This document shows, piece by piece, positions 12,748-27,419 of a stretch of 64,000 bases of DNA. This stretch comes from a virus: IMG/VR virus record IMGVR_UViG_3300028844_003737, positions 1-64,000 of that record; one strand, 5' to 3'. Position 1 is the first letter of the stretch, and each line of letters opens with the position of its first letter. Below the pieces are notes generated by a model, which was not told the DNA's origin, did not search any database, and was given only the letters and a program-made list of their open reading frames with translations. Both the position numbers and the translations under genes were made by a program.

Positions 12748-12814
12748 AAAAAATGCGTTTTGAGAATTTTACTATATACATATATATATAAAGTTTTTTG
12801 ACAATTTGAAAATT

Positions 12815-13302
12815 TGAAAAGTGCAGAGAGTAATTAACTCTGTATGGGATTGGTCGAATAATGAGTATACTTGAAGCTCATAAGACAATCTAATGTGAGT
12901 TGTGGTGACTTGGAACTCTGCTGAATGTAGTAGAGGTGTAACGGTCCTCATAGACATATGACACATAATGTACTTTCAGAAATAACAAGATGATTCTTGG
13001 ACTTTGTTGTGGGTAAGGATAAAACTGAAATCCCACCTTGTGGCTGAATAATTTAGTCTCAGAAGAGATAAGGCAATAGCACAGACATTGTAGTCGCTCT
13101 AACGTAGAACTAACCATCTATTAGGAGAACCAAAGTAACTTTTGGGTGTTAGGTACAAAGTTATAATAAATTCTGAGCTGAAAGTTGTAGGTAATCATTA
13201 ATCCTACATCCCCCTAATTTTCAATTTTATAAAAAAGGGTTCGATCTGATTTTTAGTTTCCACTATATTACAAACTTAAAAACTTTTATGAACCCTTTTT
13301 TT
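12815..13302 (+). ncRNA. Candidate large structured non-coding RNA
   Basis: About 590 bases (12748-13340) have no credible ORF but many short perfect helices in series. Examples: CAGAG/CTCTG (12824-12843), GATTGGTC/GACAATC enclosing ATGAG/CTCAT (about 12848-12892), GAGTT/AACTC, CTCTGCT/AGTAGAG with a six-base loop, GTGGG/CCCAC near 13.0 kb, TGTAGG/CCTACA (13186-13191 with 13203-13208). The 3' end is closed by a 12-base-pair stem, 13231-13242 with 13290-13301, followed by T residues. Size, phage context and dense helices recall the ornate phage RNAs GOLLD and ROOL, but I cannot assign it to either. The 5' end is approximate. Confidence 0.55.
13231..13302 (+). terminator. Long-stem, large-loop terminator-like hairpin
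   Basis: AAAAAAGGGTTC and GAACCCTTTTTT pair perfectly over 12 bases around a 47-base loop and end in a T tract. It may terminate the RNA candidate upstream. The large loop is unusual for an intrinsic terminator. Confidence 0.6.
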
Positions 13303-13305
13303 GCC

Positions 13306-13335
13306 TTGACTTATATGCGATTTCTTTTGTAAGAT
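13306..13335 (+). promoter_or_regulatory. Sigma-70-type promoter with no room for a leader
   Basis: TTGACT (13306-13311) and TAAGAT (13330-13335) are separated by 18 bases. The ATG of the next gene is at 13341, so transcription would start at or next to the start codon. Confidence 0.5.
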
Positions 13336-13340
13336 CTTAT

Positions 13341-13925: not shown

Positions 13926-16007
13926 ATGAGTAATTCAATAAAACATAATTTCAATCCGATGGCTCTCAGAGAGAAACATTCTGCTGAAAGTCGTACTAAC
14001 AGCTATTCTTCTTTTTGGTTAGATAATGGTTGGGACAACAATACTTCTATATTTGACGATGAAGAAACTAAAAAGGGTGTAGATTTAGTCGCACTGGCTT
14101 CTTATCGTAGGGCTATCAGTAATTTCGTTTCTATCGTTACTGGTGAATCAGACATCAAAGTTACTTTCAATACTTCAGGCGATAGTTATACTAATGGTAA
14201 AGAAGTTACTATCTCTTCTAAATTAGATGACAAACTATTTGACTCAACTGTTGGTCTGGCTTTGCATGAGGGTTCTCATATCAAACTTTCAGATTTTGAT
14301 TTTCTAAAACAACTTGATACTAATATTCCAGCTGAGTATTTCAATAGAGGTGAAGCACTTGGAATGGAGAGATATGAAGTAATTGGTAAACTAAAAAATT
14401 TACTAAACTATGTAGAAGATAGAAGAATTGATTATTTTGTCTTTTCAAATTCACCGGGCTACAAAGGTTATTATCATAAGATGTATGAAAAATACTTTCA
14501 TGCTAAGGTTATTGATAAGGCTTTAGGTTCTAATGAGTATACTTCAGTTGATTGGGATTCTTATGAATTTCGTATTATCAATCTCACTAACAAAAATACT
14601 CTTTTGGATGTTCTGCCTGGTTTGAAAGATATCAGAAAAGCTATTTTCAGTAATGTAAAGAATTTAGATTCTACTGCTGAGGCTTTCGCTGTTGCTCTAA
14701 ATGTCTTTGATATTATTCTTTCTAACTTAGAAGCCCAACCAAAAGTTGATGGTGGAAAAGGTGATGGCGAAGAGGGTGCTGATGGTTCTGAAAGTGGTGG
14801 TGATGAAAATGATATGGGTTCTAAAGGTGATGGTAATTCTGATGGTGAAGGCGAGTCAATGAGTGGTAAATCTTCAGAAAATCAGCCTGAGAATTCAAAT
14901 TCTGATTTATCAGAATTATCAGACAGGCAGAAAAAACAACTTAGTAATGCTGTAAAGAAGCAGAAGAAATTTATGGATGGCGACATCACTAAAAAGAAGC
15001 TAACTAAAAAAGATAAAGCTTCTATGGATGCTGTTGAATCTGCTGGAATGAAATATGTAGATGTTGCTAGTGGTGTTACAGATAATTACTATGGTAAAAA
15101 AACTCCTACTAAAGTTTTATTGGTAAAGAAATTTACTAAAGCTCTAGCTGAGTCTGATACCATTCGTATGATTCAAACACCAAACTACAGATGGGCTGGT
15201 GAAGAAACTAAAGAAGCTATTACTAAAGGTTTGGTAATGGGAACTATGTTAGGTCGTAAACTTCAAGTACGTGGAGAGTCTCGTGAGACTAAGTGGTCTA
15301 GAAAAGATTCAGGCCGTATCGATAAGAGATTGATTGCTGAGTTAGGTTTTGGTAACCAGAGAGTTTTTCATACTTCATTTGTAGAACAATATTCAGATGC
15401 TTTTCTTCACATCTCAGTTGATGCTAGTGGTTCGATGGGTGGAAAGAAGTGGGTAAATACTCAGACTTGTGTTGCTGCCATCGCTAAAGCTTGTTCAATG
15501 ATTTCAAATGTTGATTGTGTAATTTCTTACAGAAGTACGCAGGATACTGGAAACTACAGACGTGGTGGTAAGAATTTCCCACTAATGATGATTGCTTATG
15601 ATTCTCGTGTTGATAAAATCAATAAAATCAAAAATCTATTTCCATTACTTCGTCCGAGTGGAACTACTCCTGAAGGATTGTGTTTTGAAGCGATTATGAA
15701 GGAAATTGAACCGGCATCTAAGGATAAGGATTCATACTTCCTAAACTTATCAGATGGAATGCCTATGTTTTCTAATGATGATATTGACTATAACTATGAT
15801 ACGGCAATCAATCACACTAAGAGTATGGTAAATGAGATTCGTAATCGTGGTGTAAAAGTTCTTAGTTACTTCATTGGAGATAGTTATGATAGGGATAGAA
15901 GTACTTCTACTTTCAAAAAGATGTATGGCTCAGATGCTGAGTTCATCAATGTGACTTCAGTACTTCCGGTTGCTAAAACAATGAATAAAAAGTTCTTACA
16001 AAAATAA
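13926..16007 (+). CDS. Metallopeptidase-like and VWA-domain protein (CobT-like)
   Basis: A 693-residue protein. An HExxH motif (ALHEGSHIK, about 114-122) marks a metallopeptidase-like N-terminal half. A long acidic Gly/Ser/Asp/Glu-rich linker spans about 275-335. The C-terminal von Willebrand A domain has a MIDAS motif VDASGSMGG near 498 and a LSDGMP loop near 607. This architecture fits the VWA partners of MoxR AAA+ ATPases and the CobT chelatase subunit. The MoxR/CobS-like ATPase follows at 16.3 kb, so the two probably form a chaperone- or chelatase-like pair that remodels a target complex. Driven by promoter P1 with AAAGGGAAAAG as ribosome binding site. The name CobT-like is structural only. 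Confidence 0.82.
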   Translation: MSNSIKHNFNPMALREKHSAESRTNSYSSFWLDNGWDNNTSIFDDEETKKGVDLVALASYRRAISNFVSIVTGESDIKVTFNTSGDSYTNGKEVTISSKLDDKLFDSTVGLALHEGSHIKLSDFDFLKQLDTNIPAEYFNRGEALGMERYEVIGKLKNLLNYVEDRRIDYFVFSNSPGYKGYYHKMYEKYFHAKVIDKALGSNEYTSVDWDSYEFRIINLTNKNTLLDVLPGLKDIRKAIFSNVKNLDSTAEAFAVALNVFDIILSNLEAQPKVDGGKGDGEEGADGSESGGDENDMGSKGDGNSDGEGESMSGKSSENQPENSNSDLSELSDRQKKQLSNAVKKQKKFMDGDITKKKLTKKDKASMDAVESAGMKYVDVASGVTDNYYGKKTPTKVLLVKKFTKALAESDTIRMIQTPNYRWAGEETKEAITKGLVMGTMLGRKLQVRGESRETKWSRKDSGRIDKRLIAELGFGNQRVFHTSFVEQYSDAFLHISVDASGSMGGKKWVNTQTCVAAIAKACSMISNVDCVISYRSTQDTGNYRRGGKNFPLMMIAYDSRVDKINKIKNLFPLLRPSGTTPEGLCFEAIMKEIEPASKDKDSYFLNLSDGMPMFSNDDIDYNYDTAINHTKSMVNEIRNRGVKVLSYFIGDSYDRDRSTSTFKKMYGSDAEFINVTSVLPVAKTMNKKFLQK

Positions 16008-16020
16008 AGGAGAGATTGAG

Positions 16021-16173
16021 TTGAGTTTATTAGCATACAATAAAGAAGTACGAGATGAGATTGAAAAGCTGATTGAAGAGCATGTAAAGAAATCTAGAAG
16101 AGGTTATCCTTGGTCTGGTGAACATAAAGAAGTTACTAAAAAGATTATGAATATTTTTAGGAGAACTACTTAG
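16021..16173 (+). CDS. 50-residue helical protein (TTG start)
   Basis: The frame starts at TTG behind AAAGGAGAG and gives a basic helical peptide (LLAYNKEVRDEIEKLIEEHV ... YPWSGEHKEVTKKI). It lies between the VWA and MoxR genes. The ribosome binding site supports translation; an ATG start does not exist near the 5' end. It may be an adaptor of the pair, but this rests on position alone. Confidence 0.5.
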   Translation: MSLLAYNKEVRDEIEKLIEEHVKKSRRGYPWSGEHKEVTKKIMNIFRRTT

Positions 16174-16186
16174 TGTACAAGAAAAA

Positions 16187-16245
16187 ACTGGAAATAATTG
16201 CAGAAAGTCCTTGTATATTAGCAAATTTATTCGTAGCTTTATATG
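16187..16245 (+). promoter_or_regulatory. Early/middle-class promoter P2
   Basis: CTGGAAATAATTGCAGAAAG, then TTGTAT (16211-16216), 17 bases, TAGCTT (16234-16239). It is nearly identical to P1 and drives the MoxR-like gene independently of the VWA gene. Confidence 0.65.
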
Positions 16246-16284
16246 TAAACAATGAGAGAAATACTAACAAAAGGAAAAAATAAT

Positions 16285-17436
16285 ATGGATAAAAACATAA
16301 TCGTAAAAATTGAAAAGTCCGGCAATAGATATAATGCTTGGGACAAAGATGGTGTAAAATTTACATCACAGATTGGTACTTCTACCCGAAAGAAGGCTTT
16401 TCTAAGTAATATGGCTTTGGAACGTAGAACTGGTAAAGAAGGTAGAATTTACTGGTGGAAAGTTCCTATGGAGATGTTTGAATCTTCAATGGCTCCTGTA
16501 ATCGATGTTTCATCTGTAGATGTTCCATCAGATCATGCTGAGGTTCTAAACTTCATTCACACTTCTTATAATCTCAAACCACAAGGTTTGGTTATGAAAG
16601 AACTGAAGTGGAAGTACTTAGTTCGTTCCGCTGTTCGTGGTAAGAATATTTTGATGACTGGTCCTGCTGGTTGTGGAAAAACTATGGCTGCTAAGTCATT
16701 AGTCAACTCACTTGATAGGGCTGACTTCTACTTCAACTTAGGAGCGACACAGGACCCAAGAGCTACTTTGATTGGTAATGTCCACTTCGATAAAAAGAAG
16801 GGTACTTTCTTTTCCGAATCAGTTTTTGTAAAGGCTATTCAAACTCCTAACGCTGTTATTTTGTTAGATGAGTTGAGTAGGGCTCATCCTGATGCTTGGA
16901 ATATTTTGATGACTGTCTTAGATAGTGGTCAGAGATATTTGAGACTTGATGAGGCTGATGGACAACAAACTATCAATGTGGCTGAAGGTGTTACTTTTGT
17001 TGCTACCGCTAATGTTGGTAATGAGTATACTTCTACCAGAGTTATGGATAAGGCTTTGATGGATAGATTCATTATCGTAGAAATGGATGTTCTAAACTCT
17101 GATGAAGAGCATGGACTACTGAACTATATGTTTCCAAATGTAGATTCAGATTTACTGAAGTCTGTTGCTGAGATTGCTTCTTCAACGCGAAGTGAGTCAA
17201 AGTCTGAGGCTGGTAGGTTGTCTGCTGGAATCTCTACCAGAACTTCTGTTGAGATAGCTGGACTACTTTATGATGGCTTTGGATTAGATGAGGCTGCTGA
17301 AGTAACTGTCTATCCTCAGTTTTCTGATGATGGTGGGCTTGAGTCTGAAAGAACTTATGTGAAACAACTTGTTCAAAAGTTTGTCTCTGATGGTTCTTCT
17401 GAGGACTTGTTCAATGAGGAAGAGATGAACAGCTAA
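16285..17436 (+). CDS. MoxR/CobS-like AAA+ ATPase
   Basis: A 383-residue AAA+ protein from the ATG at 16285, chosen because AAAAGGAAAA lies upstream; the ATG at 16252 falls almost at the predicted transcript start. An N-terminal region of about 80 residues has basic beta segments. Walker A is GPAGCGKT near 126, Walker B is VILLDELSR near 192, sensor 1 is FVATANVGN near 236, and MDRF near 257 carries a likely arginine finger. This matches MoxR-family and CobS ATPases, which work with VWA proteins. CobS-like genes are common in cyanophages; metal chelation is not established for phage versions. Two strong hairpins follow the gene. Confidence 0.88.
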   Translation: MDKNIIVKIEKSGNRYNAWDKDGVKFTSQIGTSTRKKAFLSNMALERRTGKEGRIYWWKVPMEMFESSMAPVIDVSSVDVPSDHAEVLNFIHTSYNLKPQGLVMKELKWKYLVRSAVRGKNILMTGPAGCGKTMAAKSLVNSLDRADFYFNLGATQDPRATLIGNVHFDKKKGTFFSESVFVKAIQTPNAVILLDELSRAHPDAWNILMTVLDSGQRYLRLDEADGQQTINVAEGVTFVATANVGNEYTSTRVMDKALMDRFIIVEMDVLNSDEEHGLLNYMFPNVDSDLLKSVAEIASSTRSESKSEAGRLSAGISTRTSVEIAGLLYDGFGLDEAAEVTVYPQFSDDGGLESERTYVKQLVQKFVSDGSSEDLFNEEEMNS

Positions 17437-22005: not shown

Positions 22006-22037
22006 TAAAAAAATAATTGTATATAAATAAAGTTTAT

Positions 22038-22053
22038 GATATTTATATATAAG
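22038..22053 (+). promoter_or_regulatory. Candidate late promoter (GATATTTATATATAAG)
   Basis: Recurring ATATTTATAT motif just before the structured leader upstream of the HSP20 gene. Confidence 0.45.
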
Positions 22054-22059
22054 TTTCAT

Positions 22060-22230
22060 ACATACCAAAAGGATGGGGAGCATAGATAGATAACAGGGGA
22101 CAACAATTGTTTCAGACAGTGATGAGATACCCGCTCTACTTTTGGGAAGTATGACAAAAGAATTATGTTGCTCTATAAGAGAACATATGTAAAACGAATA
22201 TCAAGGTTCAAATGAAATTGATATTCATAG
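22060..22230 (+). ncRNA. Structured leader or small RNA before hsp20
   Basis: There is no ORF in the 257-base gap 22006-22262. Three helices follow one another: CCAAAAG/CTTTTGG (22065-22071 with 22139-22145) enclosing GAGC/GCTC and the palindrome AACAATTGTT; ATGTTGCTCT/AGAGAACAT around 22171-22181; and GAATATCAA/TTGATATTC (22196-22204 with 22218-22226). This could be a riboswitch, an RNA thermometer for the heat-shock gene, or a separate small RNA. No known family is recognised. Confidence 0.5.
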
Positions 22231-22262
22231 TTGACTAATGTAACTAAAATAGGAGAAATAAA

Positions 22263-22736
22263 ATGACTAAAGTTACTTTACACGGAATACCCGTAATCGA
22301 TAGAGATTCCTTTCTAACACCCTTTGACAAAATGTTTGATGACATCATAGGAAAATCATTTCCTGAAATCAACAAGCAAGTCGGAGTAAATCCTTTTCAA
22401 GGTACAGCATACCCAAAAGTAAATGTATATGAATTTGATGAAAAGGTAGCCGTAATTGCTGAAATACCTGGTCTTGATAAGAAAGACCTAAATGTTGAAG
22501 TTGAGGATGGCGTACTTACTATAGCTGGTGAAAAGCATAACGGATTGATTGATGAAGCTAAAGCTAAAGTTCTCAGAAGAGAATTGAAGCAATCATCTTT
22601 CAAACGATCTTTTACCTTGGGTGATCTATTAGATGGGGAAAGTATTACAGCAGACTTCAAAGATGGCATTCTATCCGTAGATATACCAAAGATAGAGCCC
22701 GAACTCCCAAAGAAGAATATTGTCAAAATTAGGTAA
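22263..22736 (+). CDS. HSP20-family small heat-shock protein
   Basis: A 157-residue protein with an alpha-crystallin domain: YPKVNVYEFDEKVAVIAEIPGLDKKDLNVEVEDG... and the conserved GILSVDIPK near 142-150, followed by a C-terminal tail. HSP20 proteins hold unfolding proteins and are frequent in marine myoviruses. AGGAGAAATAAA precedes the ATG. It follows a folded leader that may control translation. Confidence 0.93.
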   Translation: MTKVTLHGIPVIDRDSFLTPFDKMFDDIIGKSFPEINKQVGVNPFQGTAYPKVNVYEFDEKVAVIAEIPGLDKKDLNVEVEDGVLTIAGEKHNGLIDEAKAKVLRRELKQSSFKRSFTLGDLLDGESITADFKDGILSVDIPKIEPELPKKNIVKIR

Positions 22737-27037: not shown

Positions 27038-27049
27038 CATATTTATATC
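27038..27049 (+). promoter_or_regulatory. Candidate late promoter (CATATTTATATC)
   Basis: Recurring motif 23 bases before a 43-residue ORF and the RNA candidate. Confidence 0.4.
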
Positions 27050-27071
27050 CATCAAGTCGGAGAAATGTAAT

Positions 27072-27203
27072 ATGGATATGGATTGGATACTAAACACATT
27101 GAAAGAAGCTAGAGATGACGAAGATTGGGATTTAGTAAGAGAAGTGATTTCTTATATTGAACAATATTCAGAAATGGCTGATGAATCTTGGATGGGCGAG
27201 TAG
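27072..27203 (+). CDS. 43-residue acidic protein
   Basis: ATG behind CGGAGAAATG encodes MDMDWILNTLKEARDDEDWD..., a very acidic helical peptide. The ribosome binding site and promoter motif support it. Acidic mini-proteins of this sort can mimic DNA, but nothing here proves that. Confidence 0.5.
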   Translation: MDMDWILNTLKEARDDEDWDLVREVISYIEQYSEMADESWMGE

Positions 27204-27214
27204 AAATATAATTA

Positions 27215-27327
27215 CCACTTTAGCCAGAGGGAAGTTAGTGGATAAAGAAACTGCCAGTTAGTCTATCTGAACAAATAGGCCTATGGTTGGTTACTGGTGA
27301 CTACCGAACGTGGAACCAGGCTAAAAT
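27215..27327 (+). ncRNA. Candidate compact structured RNA
   Basis: The 138-base gap has no ORF. TTTAGCC (27219-27225) pairs perfectly with GGCTAAA (27319-27325), closing a domain of about 107 bases. Inside are AACTGCCAGTT, a four-base-pair hairpin, and the palindrome ATAGGCCTAT. It ends 17 bases before a short ORF, so it may act as a cis-regulator. No known family assigned. Confidence 0.4.
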
Positions 27328-27341
27328 TACAGGAGATATAA

Positions 27342-27419
27342 ATGGGAACAATGCTACTAATATTCGTAATATTTCATTGTGTTTTTATGTCATTACTTTT
27401 TATTTATATGGATGACTAA
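27342..27419 (+). CDS. 25-residue membrane peptide
   Basis: ATG behind CAGGAGATATAA encodes a hydrophobic peptide (MLLIFVIFHCVFMSLLFIY core, ending MDD). Its TAA overlaps the ATG of the next gene. It may be a single-helix membrane peptide or a translated leader coupling the next gene to the upstream RNA structure. Confidence 0.45.
   Translation: MGTMLLIFVIFHCVFMSLLFIYMDD

Follow-up and report, generated by a model that had tools for sequence, protein, structure and literature searches.

A large structured RNA of a marine T4-like phage joins a manA-type frame to a nested manA core

Does the longest gene-free gap of a compact phage genome encode an RNA, and if so, does this RNA act as a leader of the next gene or as a gene of its own? 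The gap lies on the plus strand at 12748-13340 of the window, by which we mean the whole 64,000-nucleotide stretch analysed here, part of a 74,387-base IMG/VR virus record. A sequence-only reading had described a gap of about 590 bases and proposed that positions 12815-13302 hold a new large structured phage RNA, closed by a terminator-like stem and with no clear match to known families. The gap is real and measures 593 nt, the largest in the window; the second largest is a 381-nt gene-free gap at 27038-27418. Judging by genes such as PhoH, a T4-type baseplate wedge protein, an SbcC-like subunit, a primase and a MoxR/CobT-like pair, the virus is probably a T4-like myovirus; at 13926-17436, the gene of a VWA/CobT-like protein precedes that of a MoxR/CobS-like AAA ATPase. 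Among the relatives compared, no conserved open reading frame was found in the RNA region, and its stop-free runs on the plus strand are short, with a median of about 27 codons. A minus-strand coding gene was rejected, since the open reading frames of 64 and 75 amino acids are not kept in relatives.

The case for an RNA is built on comparison. Long copies were gathered from environmental contigs via searches with neighbouring proteins and pattern searches for the 5' core (core A) and the terminal hairpin, giving 79 distinct long homologues from marine viral contigs, or 52 once clustered at 97%. Conservation spans TTTTTTGACA through the terminator hairpin, and the limits of the RNA with its terminator are about 12797 to 13301, slightly wider than first proposed; the sequence further upstream is not conserved, except for an AT-rich promoter-like block. 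A Blast search of the RNA against isolated phages gave no match, and it is missing from Microcystis phage Mel-JY01 and LR756508, the isolates that come nearest in their proteins. Pattern searches of bacterial genomes returned 96 matches, about the chance expectation by our own estimate. Folding of the whole region as a single sequence is mildly better than that of shuffles (z -1.83), so stability alone is insufficient as proof and the proof lies in covariation. For 11 sequences, RNAalifold predicted 118 pairs, with double changes at 47. A curated structure of 89 pairs leaves 98.9% of the cells of this 11-row alignment paired, with 41 double-changed pairs vs 21.6 +/- 2.8 after shuffling, and pairing is 37-46% when the partners are slid. 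On 53 sequences, the same structure pairs 97.0% of cells and has 68 double-changed pairs vs a shuffled mean of 46 and maximum of 52; with partners slid, pairing falls to 42-44%. This comparative evidence, obtained by the covariation analysis that the sequence-only reading had called for, strongly bears out its structured RNA and confirms that the gap encodes a real, strongly conserved structured RNA of about 430 bases (12797-13224, plus strand, P0 to P0').

What kind of RNA is it? In an Rfam scan of the whole window, manA (RF01745) was the one non-tRNA match, at 13008-13212 on the plus strand with 69.3 bits (cut-off 55.2, E 1.5e-15); relatives score 62.6-66.9 bits. The match comprises the 3' core (core B), the P9 of the outer frame and the 3' strand of P2, and thus the earlier statement that no clear match exists was wrong for the 3' half. 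The proposal of a new RNA holds as regards a large, conserved and structured molecule, but the RNA is not wholly new. At a lax threshold, the 5' half gave chance matches only (snoRNAs and similar). GOLLD and ROOL do not fit: their covariance models gave no match at any threshold tried, and although these are likewise large phage-associated non-coding RNAs, they differ from the window RNA in size and architecture.

In Rfam, manA begins with P1; P2 then encloses P3, the multiloop of P4 with P5-P6-P7, P8 and P9, and its 3' strand comes immediately after P9. The window RNA has the same helix order, the conserved CUGAAUAA / UAAGG loop and the P5-P6-P7 multiloop and, like manA, occurs in T4-like phages. 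Comparison shows a manA-type frame of P1, P2, P8 and P9, closed by an additional helix P0, that holds core A, and core B lies inside P8. All features that follow are on the plus strand. The P0 5' strand UUGAAAAUU (12806-12814) pairs with 13216-13224, forming 8-10 pairs in all of the first 11 sequences, with base changes among them. The P1 hairpin (12821-12845), supported by covariation, is followed by the P2 5' strand GGGA (12846-12849), which pairs with UCCC at 13209-13212, about 360 nt away. P2, which is GGGAG/CUCCC in manA, is absent before core B; the GGGA/UCCC of the outer frame stands after the 5' P1 and covaries. It is paired in all 53 sequences and swaps at two of its four pairs, G-C/A-U at one (11 sequences) and A-U/G-C at another (4). 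The local GGAUU/AAUCY pairing that RNAalifold placed there instead of P2 was rejected, as it breaks in those 11 and 4 sequences, in which P2 keeps its pairing by compensation.

Core A (12853-12966) consists of P3 with a GAAUAA / UAAG internal loop, P3b, P4, P5 with a GUGGUG loop, a variable P6 and P7, and is defined by covariation, a covariance model built from core A alone (R1) and a motif test. The P8 5' strand (12972-12979) pairs with 13178-13185, and 8 of its 8 pairs show double changes among the 53 sequences. Within P8, covariation delimits an inner module (13001-13161) with a closing helix (13001-13007/13155-13161), a hairpin (13009-13036) and core B (13041-13152) with its P3, P4 and P5-P6-P7; R2, a covariance model made from the manA cores of cyanophages, matches core B with an E value of 6.7e-7, a rough figure. 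The P9 hairpin (13186-13208) is 100% paired in the 53 sequences, and the P2 3' strand follows directly, as in manA.

The 3' boundary is formed by a bipartite terminator-like hairpin (13231-13301, plus strand) with a conserved UUUUUAGUUUCCACU..AAACUUAAAAA interior and a U tract. The terminal stem proposed earlier is thus present, as a 13-bp outer stem that stands with an inner stem (MFE -16.6 kcal/mol, z -4.2), and both strands of the outer stem vary between relatives; the hairpin is seemingly absent from one copy, L393. It has no Rfam match. Like hairpins are found in marine phages apart from manA RNA, after unrelated genes (Hsp20, PhoH and others); loci of this kind are L415, L416, L420, L422, L424, L436, L451, L459, L463 and L135. 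In the marine viral contigs L415, L420, L422, L451 and L463, a tmRNA gene lies several kb from such a hairpin. In L126 (1675-1742) and L164 (2006-2078), the hairpin matches its own reverse complement, so that it might terminate transcription coming from either direction.

Directly upstream of the RNA, an AT-rich promoter-like region TATATACATATATATATAAAG occupies 12765-12796 (plus strand), and relatives carry TGTATTTTGRGA..TATATATTAATG at this place. A promoter-like pattern, derived after inspecting these sequences, precedes 20 of 51 RNA copies vs 0 of 3000 random 75-nt windows of the window phage. Beyond the hairpin, a consensus scan, whose sites are no more frequent than in shuffles, places a promoter-like TTGACT-18-TAAGAT of the next gene at 13306-13335 (plus strand); RNA-less relatives retain a similar TTGACT site at this place.

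The neighbourhood of the RNA is partly constant and partly variable. Of the 49 representatives whose downstream gene could be identified, 37 have next the gene of a gp32-type single-strand DNA-binding protein, mostly at a near-constant distance of about 172-190 nt from P0. Elsewhere the next gene is CobT-like, a 175-aa gene (as in the window), methyltransferase-like, Hsp20 or another. Of the best 80 gp32 loci, the RNA lies upstream in 35 and is missing from 35; 1 has the hairpin only and 9 are too short to judge. Loci were counted as RNA-less only with at least 650 nt upstream, and 35 of the 71 with enough upstream sequence have neither RNA nor hairpin; an R2 scan of the gp32 loci without the RNA found no hidden manA. 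The promoter-like leader of gp32 is similar with or without the RNA, its pattern being present in 16 of the 35 loci that lack the RNA and 8 of the 23 that carry it, compared with 0.13% of random windows. RNA-less relatives have gene-to-gene junctions at the RNA site; two contigs (L133, L134) show the window's own neighbourhood with the RNA missing, and in L135 only the terminator-type hairpin is retained there. In the window itself, the Hsp20 gene (22263-22736) is preceded by a leader at 22006-22262, seen likewise in L332, L394, L424 and others, with the common hairpins AUC-GCUCAAAUGAG-GAU and GUUUGACUAA..GUAAAC, a possible RNA thermometer or other leader element.

We propose that the gap is probably an independent phage non-coding RNA gene, in which a manA-type frame with a nested core would form a cassette with its own promoter and act in trans. 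Because the neighbours vary, RNA-less relatives show plain junctions and the gp32 leader is there either way, an independent, dispensable cassette acting in trans is the most likely reading; at the level of gene order, the varying neighbours and RNA-less relatives favour a self-contained cassette. The near-constant gp32 spacing counts against an independent gene, since the same spacing is expected of a leader or from simple descent. A 2010 study (PMC2864571) presented manA, from marine sequences and cyanophages, as a candidate riboswitch located in 5' UTRs. Rfam 14.3 brought a corrected structure (PMC7779021), and in later publications manA is listed as a cis-regulatory RNA of cyanophages (PMC9964418, PMC12197685). 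A tandem manA riboswitch with an attenuator hairpin, gating polymerase into the next gene, mostly gp32, would accord with two aptamer-like cores followed by a terminator, and this cis-acting leader stays alive because gp32 so often lies directly downstream. Nevertheless, we consider it unlikely: the downstream genes differ, copies of the hairpin that lack the RNA follow other genes, a conserved antiterminator partner was not seen on inspection by eye, and the gp32 promoter-like leader lies beyond the hairpin whether or not the RNA is present. Set against a placement in 5' UTRs, the terminator-like hairpin and promoter-like sequence separate the RNA from variable downstream genes, with gp32 mostly next. 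Pattern searches with the manA core found more than 100 ordinary cyanophage-type manA loci together with close relatives of the window RNA (L119, L126). Ordinary cyanophage manA stands before unrelated genes as well, for instance near purL and hsp20, behind the major head protein gene or ahead of a carbamoyltransferase gene.

How are the two cores related? The features of a manA core, namely the P3 internal loop and P4 with P5-P6-P7, were recovered in core B by model (E ~1e-6) and in core A via topology, motif and R1. In the relatives scanned, R2 matches core B with E values of 1e-8 to 1e-5 in the first set and more weakly in the most divergent copies, figures that are rough, like those of all models built here (R1, R2 and a deeper model, R3). 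Core A has no significant R2 match and Rfam manA is also at background level on it, and R1 has no significant match to cyanophage manA, so the descent of core A from manA rests on its link to core B, the motif and the topology. In 460 kb, the best non-self matches of R1 were core B of L186 and L187, in register; on short stretches, roughly estimated E values were 4.2e-4 for core B of L186 and 7.7e-4 for that of the window, the latter also in register. A weak R3 match (L095, 1753-1862) starts exactly at the cyanophage manA P2 strand GGGAG. The UGACYGAAUAA / UAAGGURAU loop and the GUGGUG hairpin are common to core A and manA in the same order; divergent core A copies read GGGGUUGACUGAAUAA, and the cyanophage manA counterpart is GGGAGUGACUGAAUAA. 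This two-part loop motif exceeds all 400 shuffles in core A of L145, L212 and L164, and is reached by 20 of 400 and 18 of 400 shuffles in the window and L197, respectively. Cores A and B are very probably homologous, with core A a divergent manA relative, as judged from an alignment that is partly manual. A doubtful alternative is that only core B is manA and core A an unrelated domain added at the 5' side, alike by convergence on a common multiloop. The background scores of core A with Rfam manA and R2 would agree with this, as would its weak overall similarity to core B in the window copy, where a plain local alignment is not significant; on the other side, R1 matches core B end to end, the three motifs keep their order, and core A occupies the exact place of the manA core in the P1/P2/P8/P9 frame. 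New are the larger architecture, in which a 5' domain homologous to the core of manA is combined with a canonical core lodged in P8 of the outer frame, and the evidence for a separate gene.

A put-like antitermination element, a cis-acting RNA modifying the transcribing polymerase for a downstream operon, would also place a large structured RNA at the start of a phage transcription unit, but it is hardly credible, as a terminator-like hairpin follows immediately in nearly all copies, and then fresh promoter-like sequence.

As an independent gene, the RNA, bounded by the intrinsic-terminator-like hairpin, would have a phage promoter of its own, AT-rich and similar in type to the one of the gp32 gene, and would be released at about 450-510 nt. 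The cassette is present in some related phages and missing from others, and it stands beside different genes. During infection, the RNA may act in trans as an RNP, a sensor or a sponge of the phage, with both manA cores binding the same ligand or protein.

The window RNA is about twice the size of manA (~430 nt vs ~190), and it differs in having two cores, one nested in P8, a closing helix P0, a P2 5' strand that precedes core A rather than core B, a separate terminator, and no tie to one downstream gene. In the tandem glycine riboswitch, two homologous aptamer-like cores also share one RNA; the window RNA, unlike it, nests one core in a helix of the other and has no fixed downstream gene. No description of a double or nested manA form was found in the literature searched.

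These observations suggest that manA, besides being a gene switch, can function in phages as an RNA that stands by itself. We regard it as an evenly balanced proposal that controlling genes as a leader is not the primary role of manA and that it forms instead the core of a free-standing phage RNA, which nesting would have doubled in a marine T4-like lineage into a large, two-site, trans-acting RNA carried as an optional cassette. With dozens of sequences, manA, an unexplained riboswitch candidate since 2010, gains a second, larger architecture, which shows a route to large RNA through the nesting of a duplicated module. The natural pairs of phages with and without the RNA, together with the evidence for a separate gene, make the function of manA testable.
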